DNA of 22,428 bases, from positions 1 to 22,428 of IMG/VR virus record IMGVR_UViG_3300044619_000831; one strand, given 5' to 3'. The notes under the pieces are model-generated. The model made no database searches and had not been told where the DNA came from. It saw nothing but the letters and a program-made list of their open reading frames with translations. A program made the translations under genes and the position numbers. This stretch comes from a virus. How positions within the stretch are numbered: the stretch's first letter is position 1; every line of letters begins with the position of its first letter. Shown here in pieces: positions 1-22,428 of this stretch.

Positions 1-1551
1 AATCCAACTATTCGTATATCTTTGGAATGGTGCATTTTTATTGTAGTCATAATAAAATTCTACATTATCAGATTCTCTTATATCTAAAAATGAATCTAAA
101 AACTTTTGTTTTAAATGAGTATTGCATATTTCTTTAAAAATATTTTCAAAAAACTCAATAAATCCTATTTGATGGCGAGATTTTAAATATCTCATTATGT
201 ACATAGTAATTTTTCCAAACCATAATACTTGTACCATATCTCGTATACCGCGAATATATTTCATTTCTTCAAAAGACATTGTGTTAGTTGAATTTATCAG
301 ATATGTATATTCTACTTCGTCATCATATTTACTCGGACCTTGCGGAAATTTTGACCATCTCATTCCATATTTGTCTGATTGATGGTCTAACGACATTTCA
401 CTATTTTCTAATAATGCTAATTTGTACATATGTATTTCAAATGGATTGAAATCTAACAACCGTTCAATTCCATCTAAGTAACTTTTTTTAGTCTCAAGAG
501 GTAATCCCATAATAATTTCATTATAAAATGGTAATCCTCTAGCACTAAAATTATCTGCTATCCACTGCATGTTGTTTAATGTTTTAATATCTTCTCTTTT
601 TATAACAGCGTTAGTAGGTGGATGTAAGGTTTGAAGACTAAAACTTGCACCTGCACGATTTAAATCATGTTTTTCCATGATTTCTGCTATTTCTAAAACT
701 CGTTCTTTGTTATTTTTAGCATATGTAACATTTGTACTATGTAAAACTGCGTCAGGTCTTTTTGTACGTTCTACAATATATTTTGATATTTCAACATCTC
801 GACTAAGTATTCCAAAATTGGCATCAGCAATCATCATTTCTTGTACGTTATCAACCATCCAGTCAATTTCTTGTTTAATACGCTCAATAGAAAACTTACG
901 AAGCTTTTCTTCTAGTCCCCAATCACAAAATGTACAACTATATGGACATCCTCTATTTGTTTCTAATACACCTTGTATTTCGATTTTATCTTTATATTTT
1001 TTTATTATATCGTTATATATTCCCATTGCACAAGGACTAGGAATATCCAATTCGGCTTTATGATTTAAATATCTCTTTGTTGTTTGTATTTTTAAATTAC
1101 TATTTTCGTAGTAAGTAAAACAATCGTCTAGATAATCATATCCTAATTCTTTTCTTATTATATTTTCTAATGCTATTTCACCTTCACTCCAAACATAATA
1201 GTCATATTGTGGATTTTCTTTTGAAAATTCATTTAATCTGTCAATATTTTGAGGTACGTCATTACCGCCGACAATAATTTTACAATTTGGATATTTTTCT
1301 TTAATAGCTTTAGTTAATTTATTTGTTCTATTTCTGTTCCACATGTAGAGAGTACATAAAACAATATCAGGGTCTTTAATATCGTCGAGTAGTTCCAACA
1401 CCGTATCTTCAGCTCTAATACTAAACCCTGTGAGTTCTAAATTTTTAAAAATATCCGGTTTTGTACTTAAATATGCCCAAAGTGTTCCTATTGAAACCGG
1501 AATAGTGGTAATCATAGCACTGCATATTTGTACTCCGTGTATTCTTAACAT
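1..1551 (-). CDS. B12-binding-type radical SAM enzyme (3' end off the window)
   Basis: The reading frame is open for 517 codons from ATG at 1551 to the window edge, with no stop, so the C-terminus is missing. The cluster motif CxxxCxxC is clear in RGCPYSCTFCDWG (Cys202, Cys206, Cys209). It should bind a 4Fe-4S cluster and split S-adenosylmethionine. The first ~150 residues have the layout of the cobalamin-binding Rossmann domain of class B radical SAM enzymes (stretches like PDIVLCTLYMW and KIIVGGNDVP), but I see no DxHxxG signature, so B12 binding is inferred from architecture. Such enzymes often methylate or rearrange unactivated carbons. The start overlaps the stop of the preceding oxygenase-like gene by 7 bases, making it the last visible gene of a coupled cassette. 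GC is very low: bases 1081-1140 hold 13 G/C of 60. The substrate is unknown. Radical SAM assignment is firm; the subclass is probable. Confidence 0.88.
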   Translation of the reverse strand, partial: MLRIHGVQICSAMITTIPVSIGTLWAYLSTKPDIFKNLELTGFSIRAEDTVLELLDDIKDPDIVLCTLYMWNRNRTNKLTKAIKEKYPNCKIIVGGNDVPQNIDRLNEFSKENPQYDYYVWSEGEIALENIIRKELGYDYLDDCFTYYENSNLKIQTTKRYLNHKAELDIPSPCAMGIYNDIIKKYKDKIEIQGVLETNRGCPYSCTFCDWGLEEKLRKFSIERIKQEIDWMVDNVQEMMIADANFGILSRDVEISKYIVERTKRPDAVLHSTNVTYAKNNKERVLEIAEIMEKHDLNRAGASFSLQTLHPPTNAVIKREDIKTLNNMQWIADNFSARGLPFYNEIIMGLPLETKKSYLDGIERLLDFNPFEIHMYKLALLENSEMSLDHQSDKYGMRWSKFPQGPSKYDDEVEYTYLINSTNTMSFEEMKYIRGIRDMVQVLWFGKITMYIMRYLKSRHQIGFIEFFENIFKEICNTHLKQKFLDSFLDIRESDNVEFYYDYNKNAPFQRYTNSWI

Positions 1552-2090
1552 TTAAAAAATTCTCCGTTTATATACTTATTATATACTTCTGAAAACGATT
1601 CTTTGATATCAAATTGTAGACTATATCTAGATTGATTTTTAGTAGTAACTGCGTGTAAGTGTTTAGCATTAAAAACAAGCATCGAATCACTGTAGTCAAC
1701 ACTAAAATAATAACTAGTATCTTCTTTATAGAAATCGATAGGACCGTATTCTTCGAATGTAAAAATAGGAAATAGTATTGCAGTTGCCCGTTCTTTATCT
1801 CTGTGTATTGTAGGACCGTGATTGGCAGGAAATTTTACTAATTGTGTAGTTTTATAATCGAGATAATCAAAGTTTAATTGCTCTCTAATTGTTTTTATAG
1901 GTTCCATATCTTGGAGATCGAGATAATATCTGTAACTTACTGCGGTAAAGTTGTTTATGGTATATTTGTTTGTATCCCACCAGTGCGGAATATGTCCGTC
2001 CCATCGATTTTCTCTATCTAAGTTATAGCATATATCTGCTAATTTCTGCCTATCATAATCGATTTTCACTTTAAAATAAATATCATTCAT
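1545..2090 (-). CDS. 2OG-Fe(II) oxygenase-like protein (second of two)
   Basis: A 181-aa protein with a plausible non-haem iron facial triad: His96 and Asp98 in GPTIHRDKERA, a distal His144 or His146 in AKHLHAV, and Arg155 in QSRYSLQFDI placed to hold the 2-oxoglutarate carboxylate. This HxD...H...R order is typical of the double-stranded beta-helix 2OG dioxygenases, which hydroxylate or otherwise oxidise a substrate while decarboxylating 2-oxoglutarate. The N-terminal ~80 residues are rich in aromatic residues and show no motif I know. It overlaps the GNAT-like gene upstream by 8 bases and the radical SAM gene downstream by 7, so the three are probably translated together. Such oxygenases are common in marine phages, but their substrates are mostly unknown. 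Family assignment rests on the motif only. Confidence 0.68.
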   Translation of the reverse strand: MNDIYFKVKIDYDRQKLADICYNLDRENRWDGHIPHWWDTNKYTINNFTAVSYRYYLDLQDMEPIKTIREQLNFDYLDYKTTQLVKFPANHGPTIHRDKERATAILFPIFTFEEYGPIDFYKEDTSYYFSVDYSDSMLVFNAKHLHAVTTKNQSRYSLQFDIKESFSEVYNKYINGEFFKC

Positions 2091-2694
2091 TAATTAATGT
2101 ATCCTTTATGTTTCCGTTATGATTGTACCAAAAAGCACATTTTTTTGGCATCCAAACATAGTTTTCATCTTGTAAGTCGATATAGTACACGTATTGATAA
2201 AACTTGTCATGTGGATTTTCATTTACTTTAAACAGCCATCTATAATCTGTCTTAACTTGCTTATACCAACTAGACTCAAAATATTGTTTCGAATCAGGGT
2301 CTGTCATGCGTTTTTTATGTTGGTATAACGCATTTAATGGTGTGTTATGTATGTCGTGTGTCCAATAGAGTATTTTAAAATTCTTTTGTTTTGCCCATTC
2401 GATTTGATACGGTAACATTTTAAATCCACAATGGCTATGACGATGTTTTTTTAAAATATGATAACGACAGATTCTAACAGCAATATCGGGATCATTTGTG
2501 TAATGACTTTTTTCAGCAACGCTTATACTTGCTAGTTCCGAATTAATATATGCACACCAAATTTTACCATTGATAGCCTCAGGGTTGAATTTATCACTTT
2601 TTAAACTATTATTGCCTTCTTTTATAGCCTGGCGTCTAAAAGATTCTAATTCACCCCGATTGCTTTCGGTATATTCTTTAATTACAACATTCAT
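2083..2694 (-). CDS. GNAT-like acyltransferase (tentative)
   Basis: A 203-aa protein. Residues 45-130 resemble the GNAT acetyltransferase core: a strand of the type WCAYINSELASISV, then ICRYHILKKHRHSHCGFKML at the acetyl-CoA pyrophosphate-loop position, a helix ending in EWAKQKNFKILYW, and NTPLNALYQHKK, close to the usual N...A..LY.K.GF ending. The Q/RxxGxG/A loop is degenerate (KHRHSHCG), so this may be a distant or inactive member. The C-terminal 70 residues, rich in Trp and Tyr, are not recognised. The start overlaps the upstream oxygenase-like stop as ATGA. In context it could acylate a cassette product, but that is inference. Confidence 0.5.
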   Translation of the reverse strand: MNVVIKEYTESNRGELESFRRQAIKEGNNSLKSDKFNPEAINGKIWCAYINSELASISVAEKSHYTNDPDIAVRICRYHILKKHRHSHCGFKMLPYQIEWAKQKNFKILYWTHDIHNTPLNALYQHKKRMTDPDSKQYFESSWYKQVKTDYRWLFKVNENPHDKFYQYVYYIDLQDENYVWMPKKCAFWYNHNGNIKDTLINE

Positions 2695-3305
2695 AAATTT
2701 AATAAATCGTCTTGCCCGTCTAAACTAAACATGAGTGCTATTCTAGGTTTGTCGCTCATGTTTACTACTGCATGAGGATATGCAATATTTAAGAAATATG
2801 CATTACCTGGTTCGAGATTGTATGCTTCTAATTTATCGTCACGTCTAAACAAGTTTACTACATTACGATCAGTGTATATAGGGCAAATACAACGAACAGC
2901 ATAACTAACATCGTAATCAACGTGGAACGGTATTACTTTACCTGGAGCAAGTTTTGTTATGCGTACTCTGCTAGCTTTTGCTTTTAGTTGAGTTACAACG
3001 TGTTCGAAGTAACTATCGGTGTATTCTTGTGTCGGAACATTATAAAGATGTTCCTCTCGTCTGCGAAGTCTTTCTTTAATACTAGCTTCATATGGAAGAA
3101 TTTCACTAGGTATTGTTAGATTTATCTGTTCAAAGTTGTCATATACTTGTTCGACTAACGTCATGTGATTGTCACAAAGCATTGGATTTGCTGTACGCAC
3201 GTCGACAAATTTTTCAGCTAGTGCGTCACATTCTTTTTGTAAACGATCCAAGTCGACGTCTAAATTAAAATTCATGATAGTGGGTAATTGGTGTTTTTTT
3301 AACAT
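2691..3305 (-). CDS. 2OG-Fe(II) / aspartyl-hydroxylase-like oxygenase (first of two)
   Basis: A 204-aa protein whose C-terminal half carries the oxygenase signature: His128 and Asp130 in VIPFHVDYDVSY, His178 in AYPHAVVNMSDKPRIALMF, and Arg188 ten residues later. The spacing resembles phage and bacterial prolyl- or aspartyl-hydroxylase-like proteins. The N-terminal ~100 residues are polar and partly helical. The chosen ATG at 3305 has a good ribosome-binding site (AGGAG, 7 bases upstream); an internal ATG at residue 11 is the alternative. The start overlaps the aminotransferase-fold gene by 7 bases and the stop overlaps the GNAT-like start as ATGA. It is not obviously a duplicate of the other oxygenase: sequence outside the metal ligands differs. 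Probably an oxidative step in the same pathway. Confidence 0.7.
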   Translation of the reverse strand: MLKKHQLPTIMNFNLDVDLDRLQKECDALAEKFVDVRTANPMLCDNHMTLVEQVYDNFEQINLTIPSEILPYEASIKERLRRREEHLYNVPTQEYTDSYFEHVVTQLKAKASRVRITKLAPGKVIPFHVDYDVSYAVRCICPIYTDRNVVNLFRRDDKLEAYNLEPGNAYFLNIAYPHAVVNMSDKPRIALMFSLDGQDDLLNL

Positions 3306-4063
3306 TTATAAACTCCTGCAAGACATATACGAGCTATGTCATCTTTTCTTCTAAACTTACTGTAGTCACTGTCTTTTGTAGTTGCTAACCAAACGCTATC
3401 GCTTGGTATAAAATTCATTTCTTCGCATACTTTTTTTTGTTTATTATACAATGACTTATAAACAAAGTCAATGTCAAATGTACTTATGATGCTTTCTGCC
3501 ACTTGATGCGCAAAATAGTTATAATACTTTGCACTATGTATTAATGCTTCTTGTTTTTTGTCTGGCGTTCTGCAAAAAAACCAACCTGTTCTAATATTAC
3601 TAATACCAAAACTTTTACTTAAACTATAAAATACATACTGCACATTATCGGGTAATGTAATTTTTTGAACGCTAGTACTTCCGACATATGCTAGATCTAA
3701 TGCAACCGGGTCATCGGTTTTTACAGTTTTAAAATTACCATCTACTGCACTAGGTATACTTTGATATACTATAGTAGGATGCATCCTTCCATTAATGTTA
3801 TCTACCCATTGATATTCGCCCTGTTCTCTCCAAATATTATACTTGCTAGTTCCGCTCCACCAGTTCAAGCCTTCTGTAATTCCGTTCATAGGATATACAT
3901 TAAAATCTGTTAAATCTACAATAGGCTTAAGCCACTCAATAATATTTGTTTTGTAGTGTACAACACTATCGTATGTAGGTGTTATATTATCAATGTGTGC
4001 CCGAACTTCGGGCAAAATGTTAGTCCTAACTGCTAAACTTTGGTTTAATAAAAAATCTTTCAA
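3299..4063 (-). CDS. Short PLP-dependent aminotransferase-fold protein
   Basis: A 254-aa protein with fold-type I aminotransferase signatures: a phosphate-loop-like NGITEGLNWW (residues 60-69), LDLAYVGST with Asp123 placed to contact the PLP ring nitrogen and Tyr126, and YSLSKSFGISNIRTGW with Lys150 as the Schiff-base lysine and Arg158 as in SLSKxxGxxxxRxGW. Classical class I/II enzymes are ~380-430 aa, so N- and C-terminal small-domain parts are shortened. The start codon is TTG at 4063, supported by AGGA seven bases upstream; this gives a 38-base overlap with the desaturase gene. It may transaminate, decarboxylate or condense an amino-acid-like substrate; I cannot say which. A gene with the same motif block lies at the opposite end of the window. 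Confidence 0.75.
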   Translation of the reverse strand: MKDFLLNQSLAVRTNILPEVRAHIDNITPTYDSVVHYKTNIIEWLKPIVDLTDFNVYPMNGITEGLNWWSGTSKYNIWREQGEYQWVDNINGRMHPTIVYQSIPSAVDGNFKTVKTDDPVALDLAYVGSTSVQKITLPDNVQYVFYSLSKSFGISNIRTGWFFCRTPDKKQEALIHSAKYYNYFAHQVAESIISTFDIDFVYKSLYNKQKKVCEEMNFIPSDSVWLATTKDSDYSKFRRKDDIARICLAGVYKC

Positions 4064-4667
4064 TAAGTATTCCTGCTATATCAAGTTTATGTAGTTTATA
4101 TGATCTAGGATTATTATGATGATACTTATGCCATCCTTCACCGGGTGCTATGATATTTAAAATAGGTATGTCGACCGGAGTACCAGATCTATGGGTTAAC
4201 CAATTAAGTAACCCAAATCCGGCCCACGAAAGAATAAACGGCATAAAAACAAAAATAATAAACAAATTTATACCTCCTAGCAGAGCTATAATACTAGCAT
4301 ACGCCAAATGTATATATTTTCTATAGCGATGAAAAAATACAATTCTTGGATTTTTTAACAAGTCTACAATATGCTTTTTTGGAATATATTCTACATGCCA
4401 TCTGCTAGATAATACATTCCATACTCCTTTATAAACAGGACTATGGGGATCTTGCTCGGTATCACTTTTTGCATGATGCATTCGGTGTACGCCTGCCCAT
4501 GTTAATGCACTTCTTCCGCCGCAAATGAGACCAAAAAATAACATGACTATTTCTAATGTCAACGAAGTTTCAAAACTACGATGTGTAAAATACCGATGAT
4601 ATCCTATAGAAATACCAATGAGAGCAGCAATATAATAAAATAAATATCCGTATATAAATGTAATCAT
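4026..4667 (-). CDS. Acyl-CoA/acyl-lipid delta-9-type fatty acid desaturase
   Basis: A 213-aa membrane protein with all three histidine boxes of the di-iron desaturases in order: HRYFTH (24-29), HRMHH (61-65) and HKYHH (180-184), plus the flanking GxxxxxGYHRYFTHRSF and NWLTHRSG stretches of the delta-9 family. Hydrophobic segments lie near residues 3-20, 40-56 and 118-158. The family introduces a double bond into a membrane or CoA-bound acyl chain with O2 and reduced ferredoxin or cytochrome b5. It is shorter than usual (~270-300 aa), mainly at the N-terminus. No ribosome-binding site precedes the ATG; the spacing to a promoter-like sequence suggests a leaderless message. It heads the six-gene AT-rich cassette, so it may act on a pathway intermediate rather than on host lipids. 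Confidence 0.9.
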   Translation of the reverse strand: MITFIYGYLFYYIAALIGISIGYHRYFTHRSFETSLTLEIVMLFFGLICGGRSALTWAGVHRMHHAKSDTEQDPHSPVYKGVWNVLSSRWHVEYIPKKHIVDLLKNPRIVFFHRYRKYIHLAYASIIALLGGINLFIIFVFMPFILSWAGFGLLNWLTHRSGTPVDIPILNIIAPGEGWHKYHHNNPRSYKLHKLDIAGILIERFFIKPKFSS

Positions 4668-4712
4668 ACTATACTATGCGCTATATTTAACATTTTGTCA
4701 ACGGCATTTATA
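4668..4712 (-). promoter_or_regulatory. Putative promoters ahead of the desaturase cassette
   Basis: On the minus strand TTGACA (4701..4696) is followed after 17 bases by CATAGT (4678..4673), which matches 4 of 6 of the -10 consensus. The ATG begins five bases later, so a transcript from here would start at or next to the start codon. Just upstream, TATAAATG (4712..4705) matches 7 of 8 positions of the T4 late promoter TATAAATA and would give a normal leader. No transcript evidence is available. Confidence 0.5.
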
Positions 4713-4743: not shown

Positions 4744-6798
4744 TCAACCTCTGTCAAATCTTCCAACATATGTTACTGCAATATTTTTAAGACTTAATCC
4801 ATTAGATACATTACTTACTCTTATAGGAAATGTAGTTTGTGGTATTTTACTAATGTCTTGATATCCTACTCTAGCATCCCCGCCTTCTAAACTTTGATAA
4901 TCTGTCCAATTAGCACTGGTAGCGGTTGTGGATTCTACACCATAATAAAAGTCATCCGAAGACTGAACATCCAGACTCTGGAAATAATTTTTTACATCTT
5001 GATATGTCCACGAACGATTAAGTCCCATCAAACAGGCAATAAATCCTGCTGCTACTGGACATGCTGCACTAGTACCACTAAATCCGCAATCCTCTGGTAC
5101 ACCAGCACCGCTACCGCTATCTGCTGTAAATCCTGGATAAGTATCAGGGTATCGTCCTTCGGGTGTATAGCTTCTATTTGCTGCTAGAGTACCATCTGCA
5201 GGCATGTAAACGTCAATGGCTTCACCCCTGTCACTATACCCTACTTTTGCTTCTTTACTACTTGTAAAATCGTCGTCTAACGCACCAACGTTTATAGTTT
5301 TATAAGTAACCTCGCCAGTGAGACCGTTTACAGTTTTTCCACCCATCTGTGGAAAACCTCTTCTATTAGTAGTTCCATATACAGCTTGACCGATGTCAGA
5401 GTATGTTGTTTCTTCCAATGTCTGTGTTGATGTTGCACTGATGTAGTTGTCGAAATCTGGATGACCCCAGTTAACTTGTTTCTGATTGCTATTACCTGCT
5501 GCAACAACAAATATTATACCGCTATCAATAAGTTCGTCTAATGCAGTGGTCAATGAACTTGGCTTAAATTCGCTTTTCCAACGCCCGCTGTCTCCTTGTG
5601 ATCCCATATGACTTATAAATGCAGGTTCGCTGCTAGTGCCTGGATATTGAACAGGAGCATCATTTCTAAAATGATAGTATCCGTTTGTAGTACCTTTACT
5701 AGATCTGTATCCCCAGCTATTAGAACTTACTGTAGGATTTTTAGTGCCATACTTTGGATTTACGGGTTTTGTTTGATGAAATATTTTTTGTAAATCAAAT
5801 CCTGGTTCTATATCTGCACCGTTGGTGCCATAATGATTGAGAACCCATTTGTTAGCATTGTATGCCCATCCTTGCGTTCTGCCATATGTGAGGGCCATAC
5901 AAGGCGTACAGTGCTCTCCTACACTGCTTTGTGTAGTATTAGACCCATTACAATATGCACGAGTATAGAAGCTTGTAACAGTAACAGTGCCTGCGGTTGG
6001 ATATAAATTGTTAAATGTGCCACTTCTATTTGTAGTTGACGCCCACCAATTACGTGCAACACTTTCAACAGGAACAATCGTGCCGTCCCAACGAGCAGTT
6101 AGTCGTGCGCCTGGGTTTGCATTGAAATAATCTGGATCCAAATAGTATGGTGCGTCCAGCACAAGATCTAACACGTCACAAGTTCCGTTGCCAGGTAATC
6201 GATTACCCCCTGTATAATACGTAGGTTTAGCACCTGCACAGTTATTTTGAAACTCTGGGTGTCCTATCCATCCGGCGCCATCATCAGCAACAATAACATC
6301 AACATCTCTAGCATCGCCAAATTGCTGAATATTACTGTTTACAACTGCATTATCTGCAAGACTGCCATCTTGCCACACATCTAATTTCTGCATAGGACGC
6401 AACAACTGATATCCTGTTCGGTTGATATCGGACGAATTCGGAGTACCTGGTAATGTATTACTAACACTAAATTCTCTGTATACCTTAACGTTACTTTGCC
6501 AACGTGTTAATAACTCTGCACTAGTTGCCTGAAGTTCTCCAGGATTTGGTTTAAATTGTTCCGGATAGCTTGTAAAGTCTACGTTAATCCATTTAACTCT
6601 TGGATCTGCTTTTAATGCTTCAGCTTCTTCATCAGTTAAAAGAAAAATACCTCTAGTAGGACTATGAGGTTTTTCATCTACACAAGTTACGCATCTACTA
6701 GGAACAGTATCAGTTCCTTCGCTAGAGACTAGTTGGTTATGTATTTCGTACCATTGCTCGGGGGTATGTGTACCGATTTGGTAATACTTTTCACTCAT
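4744..6798 (-). CDS. Subtilisin-like (S8) serine protease, virion-associated
   Basis: A 684-aa protein. The S8 catalytic set is visible: Asp172 in VIVADDGAGWIGHPEF, His296 in VGEHCTPCMALTYG, the oxyanion Asn436 in VVAAGNSNQ, and Ser577 in GFSGTSAACPVAAGF. The usual HGT after the catalytic His is HCT here. There is no signal peptide; the first ~125 residues may be a pro-region or virion-attachment domain, and an insert of ~100 residues separates Asp and His. The end of the protein (~650-684) resembles a small beta domain. The ribosome-binding site AAGGAT precedes the ATG. It follows the tail-fibre-like gene after 20 bases, which suggests a structural protease that processes fibres or degrades host surface protein. 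S8 identity is firm, the role inferred. Confidence 0.87.
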   Translation of the reverse strand: MSEKYYQIGTHTPEQWYEIHNQLVSSEGTDTVPSRCVTCVDEKPHSPTRGIFLLTDEEAEALKADPRVKWINVDFTSYPEQFKPNPGELQATSAELLTRWQSNVKVYREFSVSNTLPGTPNSSDINRTGYQLLRPMQKLDVWQDGSLADNAVVNSNIQQFGDARDVDVIVADDGAGWIGHPEFQNNCAGAKPTYYTGGNRLPGNGTCDVLDLVLDAPYYLDPDYFNANPGARLTARWDGTIVPVESVARNWWASTTNRSGTFNNLYPTAGTVTVTSFYTRAYCNGSNTTQSSVGEHCTPCMALTYGRTQGWAYNANKWVLNHYGTNGADIEPGFDLQKIFHQTKPVNPKYGTKNPTVSSNSWGYRSSKGTTNGYYHFRNDAPVQYPGTSSEPAFISHMGSQGDSGRWKSEFKPSSLTTALDELIDSGIIFVVAAGNSNQKQVNWGHPDFDNYISATSTQTLEETTYSDIGQAVYGTTNRRGFPQMGGKTVNGLTGEVTYKTINVGALDDDFTSSKEAKVGYSDRGEAIDVYMPADGTLAANRSYTPEGRYPDTYPGFTADSGSGAGVPEDCGFSGTSAACPVAAGFIACLMGLNRSWTYQDVKNYFQSLDVQSSDDFYYGVESTTATSANWTDYQSLEGGDARVGYQDISKIPQTTFPIRVSNVSNGLSLKNIAVTYVGRFDRG

Positions 6799-6818: not shown

Positions 6819-8336
6819 TTATGCGGCAGTTCCGTCATCTAAGTTAATCCAGCCGCCGTTTTGATAACCTTGGAATCTATTATCTGTTGTGTTGTAGATT
6901 AAATCGCCTGCAACTGGACTGATTGCGTTTCTTTCTGTTGTTGTAAGTTGTGCTAGTCTAAACGGACTAGTAGTTACACGTACACGTTCTGCTGCTTGCA
7001 AGTCGATAACTGTTTCGCTTTCTAAGGTAGGAGCGCCGCCGCCTGTGCTAATAAAAGTATTAGCAGTTACCGAAGCAAATCTTACATCTGCGTCTTCTTC
7101 AAGAGACTGGTTTGGCATATTAAACCACGAATCTGCTTGATAATACTGTATTCTTTCGGCGTCCATATTATAGAACATTGCACCGTCAATTGAATTACTG
7201 TCAGATCCGAATCCATCTCTTGAACTAGTATCACTTGGTCCTAGTTTCAAGAATGTACTAAGTACAGTTGCGTTTTCACCAAGTTCTTCTACAACTGCTC
7301 TGGTCCATCCTGTAGTGCTATTATACATGTATAATCCACCGCCTGTGGTAACAGTATCATACATCATCTCGCCACTAACAGGTGATGCAATTGATGTATA
7401 TGTTCTGTCGTCACTAAGTTTTAAACTTCCTGTTAAAAGCATCTCGCTTGCAGTCACACTACCGGTGAATATAGCACTGCCTTGCACATCTAGTTTTGCA
7501 GATGGAGTGTATGTTCCTAATCCTAAATTGCCTGAATTATTGAGCAACACAATTGTTGACTCAGGAAACACTGCGGTTTCATCTACATGTAAATATATTC
7601 CACCACGTCCGCCGCCTATAACTGCCTCAAACTGTTCGCCGTTAATGTCATTTCGAGTAAAAAAGATTTGACCTCTATCTGTGCCGCTTCCGGATAAGTC
7701 GCCTGCTGAATTTAATTGAAAACGCATTGCTTTACTTGACGCAGTATTTTGTATTATAATGCCGTCATTTATAATTAAATCAGCAGATATTGTTCCACTA
7801 AGTGTATTAGTATCGCTGTTGACTAACATACTACTATCACTGCCGATAATATTAATTTGTTGGTTGGAACCGTCAAGTATAGTAGTTGTTGTATTTGGTA
7901 TATTAATCCATTCTGCACCATTCCAGGATATTACGTCACCTGAGTTTAGTGTTCCTAGGTTAAAATCGTTTAAATCGCCTAACGAAATGTTAGTAATTAA
8001 ACTACCATCACCGATAAACGATCCATAAAATGCGCTGTTTACGTTATCAACAATTAAAGTGCTATCTACGCTAACAATACCACTGTCAATTGCTAATGCT
8101 GATACAGTTCCATTGATAGCAATGTTACCGGTACCGTTGATTTCATAGCCGCTTAAATTTAGGTTTGATGTAAGAGCACTAGTAATGCCACCACCACCGA
8201 CAATTAAAGTACCGCCTACTGTTGATCCGTCACCGACATATAGTTCTCCGGTATCTGTTACGTATACAAGTTCACCTTCAGAAAATGTAATACTCTGTCT
8301 TTGAAGGTCTGTACCGCGTCTTAATCGCAATGTCAT
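6819..8336 (-). CDS. Tail-fibre-like structural protein
   Basis: A 505-aa protein. The first ~45 residues (MTLRLRRGTDLQRQSITF, then GELVYVTDTGELYVGDG) match the short N-terminal domain common in phage fibre, tropism-determinant and appendage proteins. The body is low in charge and rich in Gly, Ser, Thr, Asn and Ile, with repeated short beta motifs typical of trimeric fibres, for example LGLGTYTPSAKLDVQGSAIF. A motif of the type G-x-(L/M)-(I/M)-Y-(N/D)...W recurs near residues 325-345, 388-412 and 482-500 (GEMMYDT, GAMFYNM, GDLIYNT), each ending in a Trp. It probably attaches the virion to its host. AGGAG lies nine bases before the ATG, inside a hairpin arm. The serine protease gene follows at once. 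Confidence 0.78.
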   Translation of the reverse strand: MTLRLRRGTDLQRQSITFSEGELVYVTDTGELYVGDGSTVGGTLIVGGGGITSALTSNLNLSGYEINGTGNIAINGTVSALAIDSGIVSVDSTLIVDNVNSAFYGSFIGDGSLITNISLGDLNDFNLGTLNSGDVISWNGAEWINIPNTTTTILDGSNQQINIIGSDSSMLVNSDTNTLSGTISADLIINDGIIIQNTASSKAMRFQLNSAGDLSGSGTDRGQIFFTRNDINGEQFEAVIGGGRGGIYLHVDETAVFPESTIVLLNNSGNLGLGTYTPSAKLDVQGSAIFTGSVTASEMLLTGSLKLSDDRTYTSIASPVSGEMMYDTVTTGGGLYMYNSTTGWTRAVVEELGENATVLSTFLKLGPSDTSSRDGFGSDSNSIDGAMFYNMDAERIQYYQADSWFNMPNQSLEEDADVRFASVTANTFISTGGGAPTLESETVIDLQAAERVRVTTSPFRLAQLTTTERNAISPVAGDLIYNTTDNRFQGYQNGGWINLDDGTAA

Positions 8337-15447: not shown

Positions 15448-15854
15448 GATACTTCGGATTTGCCTCTTGCAATTGGTACAACATTAATATACCCTGAATT
15501 TCTTGATGTGTCAAGTCCTTCTTCGTTTAACATGTTGAATACAATGTCTCGAAACCAGCGATCAACTACTTCTTCTTCAGGATCGGCTATTTCTCCGTAA
15601 CCTGCTGCAATCAACTGTTCTATAAAGAAATTATTCCAGTCTAGCTCAAAAAATCCGTTTCGAACATTGCTTTCATTTACTTTTACATCAATTACATTAA
15701 CCCAAGGTTCGCCACGTTTAGTAGCATATGCCTTAGGATCACGTTTTTTAAGCATTTCTAAATCAGCTTCCTCGAGACGCTTGCGCTCAGCTTCTAGTGC
15801 TTGTTCTTCTGCTGCTATTCCAGTAATTTGTTTAAGCCAGTTCTTTATTACCAT
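15444..15854 (-). CDS. Conserved T4-like marine phage protein (136 aa)
   Basis: The start is ATG at 15854 (MVIKNWLKQITG), giving a 7-base overlap with the end of metK; the longer frame to 15905 lies inside metK and is rejected. Residues 18-50 form a charged helix (EAERKRLEEADLEMLKKRD). The C-terminal part has GEPWVNVIDVKVN, RNGFFELDWNNFFIEQLIAAGYG and an acidic DPEEEVVDRWF. It looks like a structured conserved protein of T4-like marine phages; no function known to me. It is co-transcribed with metK and the exonuclease, coupled to both. Confidence 0.8.
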   Translation of the reverse strand: MVIKNWLKQITGIAAEEQALEAERKRLEEADLEMLKKRDPKAYATKRGEPWVNVIDVKVNESNVRNGFFELDWNNFFIEQLIAAGYGEIADPEEEVVDRWFRDIVFNMLNEEGLDTSRNSGYINVVPIARGKSEVS

Positions 15855-16945
15855 CCGATTTTCTCCCAAGGTACATCTTTGTCTCCAAAGTGACCATATA
15901 CACAATTTTCGCTATACTTATGAAAGTTAAACAAATCAAATCTATCAATAATGCCTTTTGGACTTAGGTCAATCTCATTTCGAATAAACTTTTCAATACT
16001 ACGATTGTGACCGTTGCTGTCAATAAGAATACTAGTAGGCTGTTTAACACCGATAGCGTATGACAATTGAATATTGCACCAATCTGCCATTTCATCTGCA
16101 ACTACGTTTTTGGCCAACCAACGAGCCATATATGCAGCACTACGGTCTACTTTGGTCGGATCTTTTCCACTAAACGCACCGCCACCGTGGGGAGCAAATC
16201 CTCCATAAGTATCAACAATAATCTTACGTCCTGTAACACCAGCATCGCCGTCTGGTCCACCAATAACAAAATTTCCAGTGGGATTGATGTGCCAAACAGT
16301 GCGTTCGTCGATTAAATCTCCCAATACTTGTTTTACTGCATCACGAATTGGTGCCTTAACACTGTGATTAAATCCATCACGGTGCTGTTGACTAACAACA
16401 ATTTGATCGATACGTTTAATAATGCCTTCGCGTCTAGCACCGTTATATTCAACACTTACTTGTGATTTAGCATCAGGCAATAAGAAATTATAGCCATCTA
16501 GTCGCATTGCTTTTAGTTTTTTTAAAATTTCATGACTGTAATGAATAGGTGCTGGCATCATGCTAGGTGTATGATTACAAGCATACCCAAACATAATGCC
16601 TTGATCACCGGCACCAAAATCGTCTGTGCCTAGAGCAATATCAGCACTTTGACTATGGATTTCATTGTAGATTTTTAGTTTATCCCAATGAAACCCATCT
16701 TGTTCATAGCCAATTTCTCGAACCTTATTGCGTACAATTTCGTTGACTTCTTCTTTGCTTACATTAAAGTTCTTTACTTCGCCTGCTAATGTAACATGAT
16801 TGGTAGTTACAAGTGTTTCGACTGCAACACGAGTAGTAGTGTCGCCTGCCTTTAACCCAGCATCAACGAGTGCGTCCGAGATTTGGTCAGCGACCTTATC
16901 TGGGTGTCCGTCGCTAACACTTTCGCTAGTAAAAATATAGTTCAT
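15848..16945 (-). CDS. metK: S-adenosylmethionine synthetase
   Basis: A 365-aa protein that makes S-adenosylmethionine from methionine and ATP. Family signatures are intact: FTSESVSDGHPDKVADQISD (His14, Asp16, Lys17), GAGDQGIMFGYA and GGGAFSGKDPTKVDRSAAY. It is a little shorter than the ~384-aa bacterial enzyme. It lies in one transcript with queE (a radical SAM enzyme) and a methyltransferase-like gene, both of which use its product, so the phage appears to raise the SAM supply during infection. Its leader repeats that of the methyltransferase gene almost exactly (see finding). Glu/Asp-rich C-terminus reads YGHFGDKDVPWEKIGW. Confidence 0.96.
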   Translation of the reverse strand: MNYIFTSESVSDGHPDKVADQISDALVDAGLKAGDTTTRVAVETLVTTNHVTLAGEVKNFNVSKEEVNEIVRNKVREIGYEQDGFHWDKLKIYNEIHSQSADIALGTDDFGAGDQGIMFGYACNHTPSMMPAPIHYSHEILKKLKAMRLDGYNFLLPDAKSQVSVEYNGARREGIIKRIDQIVVSQQHRDGFNHSVKAPIRDAVKQVLGDLIDERTVWHINPTGNFVIGGPDGDAGVTGRKIIVDTYGGFAPHGGGAFSGKDPTKVDRSAAYMARWLAKNVVADEMADWCNIQLSYAIGVKQPTSILIDSNGHNRSIEKFIRNEIDLSPKGIIDRFDLFNFHKYSENCVYGHFGDKDVPWEKIGW

Positions 16946-17767: not shown

Positions 17768-18643
17768 TCAAGTTCCCCAGGCATTTCCGAATAGGCTAAT
17801 GTGGAGTCTTGGTGTGAATCGCCACCCTTTCGCCATTGCCAGCTTTGCAACTTCTTGAACAGTGAGATTGTAGCCTTCTGTACGTCCGCCCATTGGCATG
17901 AGGTATACAGGGCATTCCACCCCTTCAGCACGATACGCTTCAACAGCTTTACCAACTTCTTCAACATCCACATCATCAGCCACAACAAACTTGAGATATA
18001 GGCTAGTACCAGGCACATCATAGTATTGACGAGCAACGCTAGGCTTAATAGCATCGTTCCAAGACTCCCCACTAACGGAGAGCTTTGGGCTACAGCTGAA
18101 CGTTGTTTTAAATCTTGCACGAGTTCCAAGGTACTCTCTAAACTCATCATGTAGCCATTGTGTAGTATTTGTTTCAAACGTAACATTTTTAAGATCCTTC
18201 ATTCTAGGATGCTCAAACAGTTCTATATACAGTCTCTGCCAAGCAAGTAACGGTTCACCGCCTGTTAGGATAAGGTGAACATCCTGCCCATTATCCATAG
18301 TCCATTTACCCTCAGGAGTAATACTTAGCAAATGATCTACAACTTCGTCGATGGTCTTGTCCATAACAAGATCTTTAAACTCAGGATAGATACTTGCATA
18401 TGTATCGCAACCAGTAAACACCAACGGCAAGTCTTCAAACTTTTCTGTAGTTAAGTGTACACCTGCTTCGATTAGTTTTGCAACTTCTGGATTGTAGCGA
18501 CCCTTTTCAGTACCACGAGGTAATCCAAAGTTTTGACAACGGAAGTTACAACCAAAAGTACGTAGGAATACGCTGGGTACTCCTACATACTTACCTTCAC
18601 CTTGTACACTATAAAATGCTTCACTATAACGTAGTTTCATCAT
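17768..18643 (-). CDS. queE: 7-carboxy-7-deazaguanine synthase
   Basis: A 291-aa radical SAM enzyme that converts 6-carboxytetrahydropterin to 7-carboxy-7-deazaguanine on the way to preQ0. Seen: YSVQGEGKYVGVPSVFLR, a typical QueE N-terminus; GCNFRCQNFG with Cys32 and Cys36; LILTGGEPLL for SAM binding; and the closing SLFGNAWGT. The third cluster cysteine, expected at position 39, is Phe; a Cys at 79 (FTGCDTYASIYP) is the likeliest replacement, after an insertion. The start overlaps folE as ATGATGA; M1 or M2 may be used. With folE upstream it forms the first part of the preQ0 pathway; queD and queC are not in the window, so products may feed DNA or tRNA modification encoded elsewhere. Confidence 0.88.
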   Translation of the reverse strand: MMKLRYSEAFYSVQGEGKYVGVPSVFLRTFGCNFRCQNFGLPRGTEKGRYNPEVAKLIEAGVHLTTEKFEDLPLVFTGCDTYASIYPEFKDLVMDKTIDEVVDHLLSITPEGKWTMDNGQDVHLILTGGEPLLAWQRLYIELFEHPRMKDLKNVTFETNTTQWLHDEFREYLGTRARFKTTFSCSPKLSVSGESWNDAIKPSVARQYYDVPGTSLYLKFVVADDVDVEEVGKAVEAYRAEGVECPVYLMPMGGRTEGYNLTVQEVAKLAMAKGWRFTPRLHISLFGNAWGT

Positions 18644-19326
18644 CTTGGTGCAAACTCCTGTTGTAGTTTAATGTTGTCAAAGAACTCTTTCTTAACACCT
18701 GCATCAGATTTAAACACACCTTCTAGTACAGTAGTTTGTGTAAGACTGCTATGTGCCATAATGCCACGATTTTCGCAACAGCCGTGTGTTGCTTGTATAT
18801 ACACAGCAACATCTTTTGAACCAGTTGCTTTTCTAATTTCTCGTGCAATGTCCATAGCAAGTTCTTCTTGCAGAGTTCCACGTCTAGCACACCATTGAGC
18901 AATTCGTGTGTATTTGCTCAATCCAATCAGTGTGTCAGCAGCAATAATGCCAATGTATGCAACACCTTTAACTGGCTGGTGATGATGGCTGCACATGCTT
19001 GTCAGTTCGCTACGAACAACCAACATGCCTTTGTACGGTTCATTGGTGTGATTAGGAAATGCAGTAGCATTTGGCATTGGATAGTATCTGCCAGACATGA
19101 GTTCCTTAACATACATCTTTGCAAGACGTCTGCCTGTGTCCATGCTGTTAGGATCAGTTTTACGATCAATTACCAAACTATCCAACACATCTTCAAACTT
19201 TTCTGTAAGTTCGTTGATTAGTTCATCAATTTCACCATCTTTGACAAACTTGCTGATGTTATCGCCTGCCCAATATCTTTCGCCTGCTTCTTCAATACGT
19301 TGTTTAATTTTTTTACTAGTTTTCAC
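18640..19326 (-). CDS. folE: GTP cyclohydrolase I (GTG start)
   Basis: A 228-aa protein that opens GTP to dihydroneopterin triphosphate, the shared first step of folate and 7-deazaguanine synthesis. Zinc ligands are present: Cys112 and His115 in MCSHHHQPVKG, and Cys183 in HGCCENRGIM; also SGRYYPMPNAT and the QEEL...I substrate residues. Length agrees with the E. coli enzyme (222 aa). The start codon is GTG at 19326 with GGAG six bases ahead. It is the first gene after a strong sigma70-like promoter and is coupled to queE. This pairing makes a preQ0 role more likely than folate supply. All catalytic positions seem intact. Confidence 0.95.
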   Translation of the reverse strand: MKTSKKIKQRIEEAGERYWAGDNISKFVKDGEIDELINELTEKFEDVLDSLVIDRKTDPNSMDTGRRLAKMYVKELMSGRYYPMPNATAFPNHTNEPYKGMLVVRSELTSMCSHHHQPVKGVAYIGIIAADTLIGLSKYTRIAQWCARRGTLQEELAMDIAREIRKATGSKDVAVYIQATHGCCENRGIMAHSSLTQTTVLEGVFKSDAGVKKEFFDNIKLQQEFAPR

Positions 19327-19609: not shown

Positions 19610-20181
19610 TTTGTGTTCTCCTTTTTCAACCAACTATCTCTTTCCCAAGGGTAGACAAGCCATTCGTCCTTTTCGCGCTTGTCAACTTCGTGCCACCAGT
19701 AATCTGGCTCAAACGTACTACCCCAATTTTGTGTCATAGTAGCAAAACGAACATTACTGTGCCATACGCTATCCCACATTTCTCTCTCGTTAGGATAACA
19801 ACTGCTTTCCCAATCTTTTTTAATCCAGTTAAAAGTATTGCCAGTATCGTTAATATCATCTACTACAAGAATTTTATGTCGAAGTTTAGTATCCCATCGA
19901 CTTTTAAGTACTTTTCTTTTTTCTTCAGGAACATATCCGACTGCTATTTCTGGTAGCCAAGTATTAACTTCAGTGTCTTCATCCGGCATTCCGTCTCGCA
20001 GTTGTACTTTAAGTGTGTGCATAGGAACGCCAATGCGATGACTTAGCAAAAGTGCCAAAGGCAGTCCACCTCTAGTAATTCCAACAATACAATCTGGCAT
20101 CCATGGATCTTTTAACAGATTGAGCATAATGCAATCTGCCGCAGTTTCAACATCCTTCCATGTGTAGTATGTTTTGTTCAT
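19606..20181 (-). CDS. Purine-type phosphoribosyltransferase
   Basis: A 191-aa protein of the type I phosphoribosyltransferase fold. The PRPP-binding motif is ILVVDDINDTGNTF (104-117), and GITRGGLPLALLLSHRIGVP (34-53) gives the dinucleotide/pyrophosphate loop. It is closest in outline to hypoxanthine/xanthine-guanine phosphoribosyltransferases, which salvage bases to nucleotides, but the hood that sets base specificity is too divergent for a firm call. ATGA overlap with the dehydrogenase-like gene upstream, GTGA with the 70-aa gene downstream. Such genes are known in T4-like marine phages. Confidence 0.85.
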   Translation of the reverse strand: MNKTYYTWKDVETAADCIMLNLLKDPWMPDCIVGITRGGLPLALLLSHRIGVPMHTLKVQLRDGMPDEDTEVNTWLPEIAVGYVPEEKRKVLKSRWDTKLRHKILVVDDINDTGNTFNWIKKDWESSCYPNEREMWDSVWHSNVRFATMTQNWGSTFEPDYWWHEVDKREKDEWLVYPWERDSWLKKENTK

Positions 20182-20933
20182 TCTTTTTTCCTTATACGAT
20201 TGTTATATTCAATAGAACTTTTAATTAACCCTAAATCAATTCCGGATAGCTCGGCAGTTTTTATAATAGCTGCTGTGTCTTTAGGAAAACAGTGACCACC
20301 GAATCCACGCTCTTTAGTAACGCTGGTGTGGCTACGTCCAATTCTATTGTCTACAGAAACTAAATGTGAAACTACACTGTAATTAACACCGATAGCATTG
20401 CATAAGTCATACATTTGGTTAAAGAATGTTACCTTTGTTGCTAAAAAGCTATTACGAAAATACTTGGCAAGAATCAATTCTTCAGCTACTGCAACTTCTG
20501 TAGTAAACGTAGAATCATTAAACGCTACTCTAAACACGGCGTGCCAAAACCCAATTTCGTCGCCTGCCATATATATGTGCCGAGTATGTTTAAAGTCCTC
20601 AATTGCACTATCAGACCTAAGAAATTCAGGACTAAATGCTAGCAAGTGTTTAGGGAAACGTTGCTTTATATTCTGCCAGCCTTCGACACTAATTGTGCTT
20701 TTGATAAGAATAGGTGTTGTTTCGTTAATTTTACCGATAACATCTATTATATTTTCACAATTACATGAGCCGTCATCGTTCGAAGGTGTGCTTACACAAA
20801 TAATCACGCCGTCTGGATTACCTATATCGTTATATCCTTTAAATGGATCATATACAGTCACATTAAAAATATCTTTTAATACAGCTTCGTGTGCAATTCC
20901 TACAAAGCCATATCCTGCAATAGTTATATTCAT
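20178..20933 (-). CDS. Short UDP-glucose/GDP-mannose dehydrogenase-like enzyme
   Basis: A 251-aa protein with the NAD-binding GxGxxG at the N-terminus (ITIAGYGFVGIAHE), SPEFLR (Glu103), AKYFRNSF (Lys157, Asn161) and the catalytic cysteine in GFGGHCFPKD (Cys215, Lys218), in the right order and spacing. These enzymes oxidise a nucleotide-sugar C6 alcohol to the acid in two steps. The C-terminal UDP-sugar-binding domain (~130 residues of the normal ~390-450) is missing, and the gene ends cleanly in a coupled stop, so this looks like a compact form and not a broken gene. Substrate therefore uncertain. Overlaps both neighbours as ATGA. Confidence 0.86.
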   Translation of the reverse strand: MNITIAGYGFVGIAHEAVLKDIFNVTVYDPFKGYNDIGNPDGVIICVSTPSNDDGSCNCENIIDVIGKINETTPILIKSTISVEGWQNIKQRFPKHLLAFSPEFLRSDSAIEDFKHTRHIYMAGDEIGFWHAVFRVAFNDSTFTTEVAVAEELILAKYFRNSFLATKVTFFNQMYDLCNAIGVNYSVVSHLVSVDNRIGRSHTSVTKERGFGGHCFPKDTAAIIKTAELSGIDLGLIKSSIEYNNRIRKKE

Positions 20934-21985
20934 TCAAAATAACTTTCTAAGTTGCCTTTGCGCTTAGTATCAAGTGTTGCACAATGAAATCCTCCACTCA
21001 TGCTTCTTGCTTGGCGCATAGGCAATCCTATAGTGTCAATACCGTGCTTGCCCAAAATACGTCTTAGTTGTTCTTGCTTTTCGTCTACAATCACAAGTTC
21101 TTCGTTTACGCTTAGGAAATTAAGTCCAATGTAAGGAGAACAAGGTGCAACGCCTGTGTTAGCTGGCGGAACATGTAGCTGATCTCCAGTTACCCAAATT
21201 TTATCCCAGTCTTTAAAAATAGGTGGATACCAATTTTCATTTAATCTATCACCGTTAAACAGTACCAAACCTGGACGCAGTGGTAGCACTGTGCTGTCGA
21301 AGTGTGCAAAACTGTAGTAACGTTCGGCAACATGTAAACGATATCCACGAGGTTCGAGGATAGTTTTAAGCCACTGAAAGCCTAATTGATTTCCGCTGTT
21401 GCTAACTTGACAAAGCAAATCTTTGCCCAAACGAACAATGTTAGGAGCATCAAAGATAATTTCTTTATTAACTAGTGTAGCATCTTCTCTGTTGTCTAGT
21501 TGATAGTTATCATCAGTTAGAATAGGCTTAGGAGCACAAATCCATTGTGTACCTTCTGCCATCCATTCATACATATGTTTATAATAAGCTCGTGTCTCAA
21601 AATATCTAGCTCGCATTGGACTAGGACATTCGATAATCATGTTATCAAGCGGCAACAGCAAATCACGAGGACAGAAAGTATACCAGCCAGTTGATTCCCA
21701 TTCTGGAGTACTAAACTTTACACGGTGGTCAATACTATCCGGTCGGCGAACTTTAACACCTAGCCCTGCAAGAACTCGTGCAAGTCCATCCAGGTCTTCG
21801 TTTGCTTCATCGCGAATCCACTGATCCATTTCAATTGCATCAAACTGTTTAATGTCTTCGTATTTTTCGCCGCCATAAATGAAACTATGTGTGCTTTTAT
21901 TCATTGTTGGATGCATACTGTAATCAGCAGTACCAACGATAATTTCTTCTAACGGGTCCCAGTCGTTATGACTCTGTACTGGCAT
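20930..21985 (-). CDS. Glycine-amidinotransferase-like enzyme
   Basis: A 351-aa member of the guanidino-group-modifying (pentein) superfamily. The N-terminus SHNDWDPLEEIIVGTAD is typical of arginine:glycine or inosamine-phosphate amidinotransferases. Catalytic residues: Asp179 in FDAPNIVRLGKDLLCQ, His228 in FAHFDSTVLPLRPG, and Cys335 in GGFHCATLDTKR. It moves an amidino group from arginine to an amine via a Cys intermediate. Length is close to the bacterial enzymes (~350-380). AAGGA seven bases before the ATG supports the start; 20-base overlap with the aminotransferase-fold gene upstream. Together with the nucleotide-sugar dehydrogenase-like enzyme and the aminotransferase-fold protein it suggests a route to a guanidino compound, perhaps on a sugar. 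Confidence 0.9.
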   Translation of the reverse strand: MPVQSHNDWDPLEEIIVGTADYSMHPTMNKSTHSFIYGGEKYEDIKQFDAIEMDQWIRDEANEDLDGLARVLAGLGVKVRRPDSIDHRVKFSTPEWESTGWYTFCPRDLLLPLDNMIIECPSPMRARYFETRAYYKHMYEWMAEGTQWICAPKPILTDDNYQLDNREDATLVNKEIIFDAPNIVRLGKDLLCQVSNSGNQLGFQWLKTILEPRGYRLHVAERYYSFAHFDSTVLPLRPGLVLFNGDRLNENWYPPIFKDWDKIWVTGDQLHVPPANTGVAPCSPYIGLNFLSVNEELVIVDEKQEQLRRILGKHGIDTIGLPMRQARSMSGGFHCATLDTKRKGNLESYFE

Positions 21986-22428
21986 AATCTAATCCTTTAA
22001 TATATTGCTTATGAAAACTTAATCGACTTATATATCCACCACGATTATACTGTTTCCATTCGTCGCCGCCTAATCCAAACAACACAGTTTTACTTGGTGT
22101 AACATTTAAAGTATTACAGAAGTCTAACTGTTTGTCAATGTATTTAGACGGAATGTAGTCAGGAGAAAATTTTTCAAAGTACTTTAGTCCTAACGATGCT
22201 CCGATTTTATTATGGTAGTTAATTTTATGATATACAAACAATGTATCGTCGTCGTCAACTTTTGTATATCTTATACCAATGCGAGCATATGCTACTGGAA
22301 ATGTTTTACTTAAACTAAACGTAACATCGGTAATGCATGGATATGCAAAGTCAAATTCAATTCCTCTGCATACGCCAAAATATGCACAATCGATTAATAC
22401 AGGAACATTGAGTCGAGAACATTCTCTC
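21966..22428 (-). CDS. PLP-dependent aminotransferase-fold protein (5' end off the window)
   Basis: The frame is open from the window edge to the stop at 21966, so the start lies outside; a short version starting at TTG 22241 is an artefact. The visible 153 residues carry the same PLP signature as the gene at 3299-4063: NVPVLIDCAYFGV (Asp for the PLP nitrogen, Tyr), then TFSLSKTFPVAYARIGIRY with the Schiff-base lysine in SLSK and an Arg eight residues later. The C-terminus ends NRGGYISRLSF..., parallel to FRRKDDIARICL of the other copy, placing an Arg where substrate carboxylates bind. It heads the coupled run with the amidinotransferase, so an amine substrate made by it could be amidinated next; that is inference. 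Confidence 0.78.
   Translation of the reverse strand, partial: RECSRLNVPVLIDCAYFGVCRGIEFDFAYPCITDVTFSLSKTFPVAYARIGIRYTKVDDDDTLFVYHKINYHNKIGASLGLKYFEKFSPDYIPSKYIDKQLDFCNTLNVTPSKTVLFGLGGDEWKQYNRGGYISRLSFHKQYIKGLDYASTES

Follow-up and report, generated by a model that had tools for sequence, protein, structure and literature searches.

The complete IMG/VR record IMGVR_UViG_3300044619_000831, a linear viral fragment of 22,428 bases (hereafter the window), carries at one end a cassette of six genes predicted to encode a membrane desaturase (DES), a pyridoxal phosphate enzyme (PLP), a hydroxylase (AAH), an acyltransferase-like protein (GNAT), a second oxygenase (OX90) and a radical S-adenosylmethionine (SAM) enzyme (RSAM; Table 1). 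In the list of open reading frames (ORFs), all six lie on the minus strand in this order. Successive genes overlap by 38, 7, 4, 8 and 7 nt, in agreement with the initial annotation of this DNA, which gave overlaps of 4-38 bases for six consecutive genes. That annotation placed the cassette at positions 1-4712; the six genes stand, but the cassette proper begins at 4667. It had also described the cassette as much poorer in GC than the MoxR region, as is indeed the case (0.29-0.36 for the cassette genes versus 0.43-0.45 for the VWA and MoxR genes). The suggestion that the pathway might extend past base 1 has to be dropped, as only the last part of RSAM lies there, followed by convergent genes. 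A near-identical contig (L002/L004) encodes proteins 93-98% identical to those of the window, with a full-length RSAM of 658 amino acids (aa) at L002:10516-12489; the genes after RSAM in that contig are on the opposite strand, and thus the operon ends at RSAM.

The gene directly upstream of the cassette, with a subtilase domain, probably encodes a virion protein, and the next one encodes a receptor-binding protein with Mtd at its N-terminus, which locates the cassette in a region of host-recognition genes. In many loci, the neighbor of the cassette belongs to a tail-fiber-type family (TF15). Of the leading TF15 genes, 19/20 are preceded within 120 nt by a motif resembling TATAAATA (at least 7/8), as expected of T4-type late promoters. 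A T4-type late promoter (TATAAATA) was also considered before DES and rejected, since the motif is not enriched there over non-leading DES genes nor over chance in the window. Scans for sigma-70 promoters and terminators gave no excess over shuffled sequences.

Table 1. Genes of the cassette and other features of the window, with positions in the record
Feature	Position	Strand	Description
DES	4667-4026	-	Predicted membrane desaturase, SCD1/DesC type, 213 aa; first gene of the cassette
PLP	4063-3299	-	Predicted minimal fold-type I PLP enzyme, aminotransferase/lyase-like, 254 aa; TTG start
AAH	3305-2691	-	Asp_Arg_Hydrox (PF05118) Fe(II)/2-oxoglutarate (2OG) hydroxylase, 204 aa; best-conserved member
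GNAT (fam6)	2694-2083	-	N-acyltransferase-like; one of three mutually exclusive families
OX90	2090-1545	-	Putative oxygenase of the 2OG-Fe(II) type, the second in the cassette; rare family with 4 groups
RSAM	1551 to beyond base 1	-	Predicted cobalamin-binding radical SAM C-methyltransferase, TokK/KedN5/CysS type; 517/658 aa inside the window
Subtilase-domain protein	4744..6798	-	PF00082, 7e-13; upstream neighbor, not a cassette enzyme
Receptor-binding/tail-fiber-type protein	6819..8336	-	N-terminal Mtd domain (PF18454 Mtd_N, 1.4e-9); upstream neighbor
S-adenosylmethionine synthetase	15848..16945	-	PF02773, 9.3e-57; PF02772 and PF00438 match too
GTP cyclohydrolase I and adjoining QueE-like ORF	17768-19326	-	PF01227, 1.7e-38; no Pfam match for the QueE-like ORF
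UDP-glucose dehydrogenase	20178-20933	-	After the amidinotransferase-like gene
Amidinotransferase-like	20930-21985	-	phrog_25854, 1.1e-36; overlaps PLP2
PLP2	21966..22428	-	Partial second copy, minimal PLP family cluster; phmmer 2.7e-12 to the PLP of a relative

A PHROGs search of the cassette proteins gave weak matches only, whereas profiles and predicted folds were more informative. DES matches PF00487 (8.6e-10), and its family profile matches the acyl-CoA desaturase structures of SCD1 (PDB 4zyo/4ymk; 8e-16). The metal-ligand residues HX4H, HX2HH, NX3H and HX2HH are invariant in 29 aligned sequences and present in 58/60 groups of viral loci (defined below). DES shares all histidine boxes and the NxxxH site with stearoyl-CoA/DesC and cyanophage lipid desaturases, but its N-terminus is shorter than that of SCD1 (the protein has only about 213 aa), and, in contrast to these desaturases, it shows genetic coupling with a hydroxylase and a PLP enzyme of the amino-acid type. 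A hydropathy scan of the window protein found three hydrophobic stretches, one of them possibly two helices, versus the four transmembrane helices of SCD1/DesC. We read DES as a membrane desaturase of the SCD1/DesC type from its residues and profile, and acyl-chain desaturation is its predicted activity.

The match of PLP to PF00155 is weak (E 0.0056; 16.3 bits, below the cut-off of 19.7), but its AlphaFold2 (AF2) model (pLDDT 96.3, pTM 0.92) has the fold of a fold-type I aminotransferase. The closest folds in Foldseek are the L-tryptophan aminotransferase TAA1, alliinase, HisC and OvoB, with 3bwn as the top match (1e-9) and many aminotransferases among the matches. Residues D123, K150, R158 and R245 are invariant in 62 sequences. 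PLP shares fold type I, the catalytic Lys, the Asp, the phosphate-binding Arg and a candidate carboxylate Arg at the C-terminal end with class I/II aminotransferases, alliinase/TAA1, HisC and threonine-phosphate decarboxylase. At 254 aa, versus 315-427 aa for the matched PDB chains, its large domain is much shortened. Because typical members have 350-400 aa and the PF00155 score is below the cut-off, PLP is labelled aminotransferase-like and not filed as a class I/II member; the model points to a minimal fold-type I PLP enzyme, aminotransferase/lyase-like. Two other readings of PLP were set aside. A serine palmitoyltransferase, and with it a sphingolipid product, was ruled out by the lysine motif with its downstream Arg (SLSKSFGISNIRTGW), which is of the aminotransferase type. 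A carnitine-like route (TauD, methyltransferase and PLP) was rejected because PLP is not aldolase-like and the window has neither TauD nor that methyltransferase.

AAH matches PF05118 (9.6e-8; 32.5 bits versus a cut-off of 22.6), keeps the motif HxD..H..R in 73/73 groups and, with a mean column identity of 72%, is the most conserved member of the cassette. The best fold match of its AF2 model (pLDDT 90.6) is Cpz10 (TM 0.66-0.80), followed by L-proline cis-4-hydroxylase, with AspH far lower in the list. Cpz10 is an amino-acid/nucleoside beta-hydroxylase of the caprazamycin pathway and acts on small molecules (PMC9814697). AAH thus shares its nearest solved fold and the HxD..H..R residues with the Cpz10-like PF05118 beta-hydroxylases (PMC9814697), but is about 21% identical to Cpz10 and sits in a different operon. 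GNAT lies just above the PF00583 cut-off (21.8 versus 20.7 bits), and 18/24 members of its family match PF00583 (best 2e-8). OX90 gave no match in the Pfam scan; it carries HxD (IHRD)...H...R as read from its sequence, and its profile weakly resembles the PF05118-like family OX7 (hhalign 53%, E 1.4e-4), suggesting a second 2OG-type oxygenase.

RSAM carries the motif CPYSCTFC (CxxxCxxC), and the radical SAM motif is kept in 19/19 groups. Its profile matches TokK (PDB 7kdx) at 3.9e-78 and CysS at 2.3e-45, and the protein matches the KedN5 family NF033712 of NCBIfam at 1.7e-51. At 175 bits, the score stays below the curated 700-bit cut-off. Although RSAM is incomplete in the window, an RS24 homolog of full length scores only 162 bits, and RSAM is thus regarded as a relative of KedN5 and not filed as a member. 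The B12-binding domain PF02310 scores 30.1 bits, slightly below the cut-off of 32.1, and is covered by the profile alignment to TokK. RSAM shares with TokK, KedN5 and CysS the B12-binding and radical SAM domains (a strong profile match) and CxxxCxxC, but sits in a phage operon without recognizable beta-lactam, enediyne or cystobactamid genes. Its predicted relationship is to the cobalamin-dependent radical SAM C-methyltransferases of the TokK/KedN5/CysS type, which gives a more precise place to the enzyme that the initial annotation had called a B12-type radical SAM protein. The other family assignments made there also hold, by profile for DES (PF00487), AAH (PF05118) and GNAT (PF00583), by AF2 aminotransferase fold for PLP, and by motif and weak profile for OX90. 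The S-adenosylmethionine synthetase of the window could supply SAM to RSAM.

Related loci were collected from viral contigs using PLP (71 loci) and AAH (118 loci, of which 80 were kept, at 69-97% identity) as baits, and merged into 89 near-identity groups. DES, which was not a bait, is present in 67/89 groups. Linkage was counted for each bait in non-redundant groups. The genes are not scattered and unlinked among the relatives: groups found with AAH and having at least 5 kb on both sides contain PLP in 36/36 cases and DES in 35/36 (DES was likewise present in 35/36 cassette-bearing records searched), and long-flanked groups found with GNAT, an independent bait, contain PLP or AAH in 31/31 and DES in 30/31. 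All 11 groups that the GNAT bait added to the set (11/11) also hold PLP or AAH. With a further family, fam10, as bait, AAH and DES each occur in 21/21 groups, while DES-baited groups contain PLP or AAH in 20/38. DES and PLP are adjacent in 43 groups and PLP and AAH in 33, mostly overlapping. Because it recurs across dozens of diverged groups, this linkage is real, widespread and beyond chance. Co-inheritance as a conserved set in many diverged relatives supports the earlier suggestion that the genes form a biosynthetic pathway.

The cassette is also modular. Among 83 groups with both PLP and AAH, 80 contain exactly one of the families GNAT (41 groups), fam10 (26) and fam40 (13), 3 contain none of them, and no group (0) contains two. 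The three loci without any of them in the first set (L096, L100 and L101) are contigs of 5-10 kb, so that the missing gene may merely reflect truncation. On the AAH tree, at least 11 switches of the family in this slot are needed, and on the PLP tree at least 9; thus, the pattern does not come from one ancient split. In a second exclusive pair, the TokK-type radical SAM enzyme (18 groups) and a SAM methyltransferase of class I (35 groups) occur together in 0/67 groups (hypergeometric P 5e-8, phylogeny not corrected). The window is one of the few loci that combine GNAT with the radical SAM enzyme. As the exclusive families were chosen after viewing the gene-order table and the groups are related, these counts describe a pattern and are not a clean test; more weight attaches to the recurrence of the pattern in groups that new baits brought in.

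A search of 50,697 phage records matched PLP, AAH and GNAT only in Pelagibacter phage Mosig EXVC030M, which also has the best DES match; two Acinetobacter phage records gave weak DES matches. The Mosig homologs, among genes Mosig_00072-00081 (MT647606), are 36% (DES), 44% (PLP), 48% (GNAT) and 66% (AAH) identical to those of the window. They share the strand, the DES-PLP and GNAT/AAH modules and the position beside tail-fiber genes, in the order AAH-like gene, DES, PLP, FMN reductase, peroxiredoxin, hypothetical protein, TauD dioxygenase, methyltransferase, GNAT, AAH and then tail-fiber genes. Relative to the window cassette, Mosig has additional genes between PLP and GNAT (FMN reductase, peroxiredoxin, TauD dioxygenase, 2OG oxygenase and methyltransferase) and has no OX90 or TokK-type radical SAM enzyme. 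The genome announcement of Mosig annotates these genes singly and does not treat them as a pathway (PMC7892664). The literature found describes single genes or the surrounding region, and no paper on the cassette as a set was found; the initial statement that no phage system with this set has been described therefore stands as far as publications go, but has to be amended by the longer version in Mosig, annotated gene by gene.

The Mosig cassette lies between the neck genes (gp14) and VrlC; the window is a fragment with neither flank. Zaragoza-Solas et al. 2020 (PMC7029224) name the neck-to-VrlC region the host recognition cluster (HRC) of pelagimyophages and mention, besides radical SAM cassettes, an Asp/Asn beta-hydroxylase and, for freshwater members, a stearoyl-CoA desaturase. 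The Mosig cassette occupies the same genomic position and shows the same mix of tail-fiber and metabolic genes as the HRC in that text. The available part of the account does not contain the DES-PLP-AAH-acyltransferase unit, the modular alternatives or a product, and attributes the region mainly to lipopolysaccharide (LPS) glycosyltransferases. Outside viruses, a scan for AAH in the genomes of 84,980 bacterial and archaeal species gave one match, an 8.6-kb contig in a metagenome-assembled genome of Candidatus Paceibacter, which also encodes PLP (L157; G051:C93:4305-5069); the AAH contig is probably phage DNA in a bacterial bin. The major capsid protein Gp23 scores above the cut-off in 17/51 records, mostly long ones, and is absent from the window and most short contigs; this is consistent with T4-like phages, although short fragments cannot tell. 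The cassette is apparently restricted to viruses, probably large marine T4-like phages.

The analysis shows linkage, a conserved gene order, alternatives that exclude each other, retained catalytic residues and the folds of PLP and AAH. It is very probable that the cassette serves one dedicated pathway. PLP would act on the amino group of an amino-acid-like substrate, and AAH would beta-hydroxylate the same small molecule. One of three interchangeable transferases (GNAT in the window) would N-acylate it, and DES, at the membrane, may add a double bond or a hydroxyl to the acyl part. Tailoring may fall to additional oxygenases and to either of two methylases, the TokK-type cobalamin radical SAM enzyme in the window and the class-I SAM methyltransferase elsewhere. 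Should these steps occur in this order and lead to a single common product, it would be an N-acylated, oxidized and methylated amino-acid derivative, probably placed in the envelope of the infected cell or on the virion, where it could alter receptor recognition. Such a derivative would be amphipathic and so would suit an envelope or virion surface, with which the gene neighborhood agrees. The best overall explanation, to which we give an even chance, is that marine T4-like phages carry, in the variable host-recognition region, an operon dedicated to the biosynthesis of an N-acylated amino-acid-derived product; the N-acyl amino-acid nature of the product, taken by itself, is a tentative proposal, possible rather than probable.

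Several points weigh against this interpretation. In 18/38 DES-baited groups (viral loci L228-L306), neither PLP nor AAH is present in the fetched flanks, and DES could thus be a separate lipid gene that was drawn in. Some loci have DES and fam10 on the strand opposite PLP-AAH, and there is swapping and shuffling of genes, as any variable island would show. Comparisons with Pfam, PDB and profiles did not reach significance for fam10 and fam40 as GNATs (hhalign to GNAT, E 0.053 for fam10 and 0.076 for fam40; fam10 versus fam40, 0.0013), so that the term alternative acyltransferase rests on exclusivity and a faint colinear match. Neither a carrier protein nor an adenylation enzyme was recognized among the cassette genes of the window. 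The AAH genome scan detects close relatives only, and distant bacterial homologs are possible. The DES groups without PLP or AAH and the varying gene order would also fit a variable island in which unrelated auxiliary metabolic genes have gathered, the desaturase alone adjusting membrane lipids as in cyanophages; phages carrying lipid desaturases are known (Roitman 2018, cited in PMC11480375). Such a gathering is nevertheless very unlikely, as PLP and AAH nearly always occur together with one of three partners (36/36, 31/31 and 80/83) and unrelated genes would not yield recurrent, mutually exclusive substitutions with exactly one of three.

Other explanations, with surface-glycan tailoring and modification of the receptor-binding protein as the main rivals, keep the genes together but assign them another substrate. 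PF05118 takes in LpxO-type lipid A hydroxylases, and the window has a UDP-glucose dehydrogenase gene and a weak sulfotransferase match, all of which would suit the tailoring of surface glycan or LPS (N-acylation of amino sugars, hydroxylation, methylation), with an altered host envelope and a block to superinfection as the result. Zaragoza-Solas et al. 2020 (PMC7029224) also locate LPS genes in the HRC, with serotype conversion as their proposal. However, the core DES-PLP-AAH-GNAT set contains no recurrent glycosyltransferase or nucleotide-sugar enzyme, PLP resembles class I/II aminotransferases and not the DegT/ArnB sugar type, and the sugar gene lies about 15 kb from the cassette, leaving this reading rather unlikely. 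The location of the cassette directly behind a receptor-binding gene raises the alternative that it hydroxylates, methylates and acylates that neighboring receptor-binding/tail-fiber protein, or a small peptide, in the manner of the maturation of ribosomally synthesized and post-translationally modified peptides (RiPPs). Peptide maturation uses cobalamin radical SAM methylases, PF05118-type hydroxylases and GNATs, and the unusual conservation of AAH is as with a fixed macromolecular substrate. RSAM does match RiPP C-methyltransferases (NCBIfam TIGR03975, 6.6e-9), but weakly, being much nearer TokK/KedN5 (1.7e-51), while the fold of AAH is nearest small-molecule hydroxylases and the invariant candidate carboxylate-binding Arg of PLP suits free amino acids. 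It is not evident what a membrane desaturase would do in the maturation of a peptide, and no precursor gene was recognized, small ORFs not having been systematically searched; modification of a protein or peptide is thus unlikely. Hypermodification of the phage's own DNA bases is highly improbable. Phage thymidine hypermodification employs PLP enzymes, radical SAM enzymes and acetyltransferases, and the window contains GTP cyclohydrolase I with a QueE-like ORF, but known base pathways have room for neither a membrane desaturase nor a TokK-type methylase, and the cassette lies beside host-recognition and not replication genes. Moreover, no 5-hydroxymethyluracil kinase or pyrophosphorylase was among the window proteins scanned against Pfam and PHROGs, in a genome that is incomplete and with ORFs partly scanned.

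The remaining genes of the window include further enzymes. PLP2, the amidinotransferase-like gene and the UDP-glucose dehydrogenase gene suggest that this phage has a second small pathway in a similar style. Campylobacter phages carry relatives of the amidinotransferase, in some cases next to radical SAM genes, and a Synechococcus phage has one next to a 2OG oxygenase; its surroundings are another recurrent phage enzyme neighborhood. GTP cyclohydrolase I and the QueE-like ORF are possibly involved in 7-deazaguanine synthesis. In the closest contig, the minus-strand genes convergent to the cassette (L004:9898-17370) encode a nitroreductase, several radical SAM proteins, a short PP-loop/QueC-like piece and three proteins without a Pfam match, one of them in the PF05118-like family OX7. 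One of these radical SAM families (RS16) is met again in about 20 groups.

Metabolic genes in phages are usually interpreted one by one, as genes borrowed from the host to boost its pathways. By contrast, the enzyme set described here occurs in more than 80 non-redundant viral groups, with catalytic residues kept and exclusive alternatives at two steps. It also offers a strongly shortened PLP enzyme of 254 aa and a putative phage C-methylase of the TokK type. The cassette fits among the metabolic cassettes of the pelagimyophage host-recognition region, and there is a real chance, though a minority one that we hold as doubtful, that it is a virus-born natural-product pathway: a gene cluster without a bacterial counterpart, kept and recombined in marine T4-like phages, with modular acyl and methyl steps. 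In that case the product, an unusual N-acyl amino acid or aminolipid, would act in host recognition or superinfection control. Mosig on Pelagibacter HTCC1062, a cultured phage-host pair with a related cassette, makes this question testable. If one product is made, it would be a virus-specific metabolite of marine phages, encoded in the region that governs host recognition.

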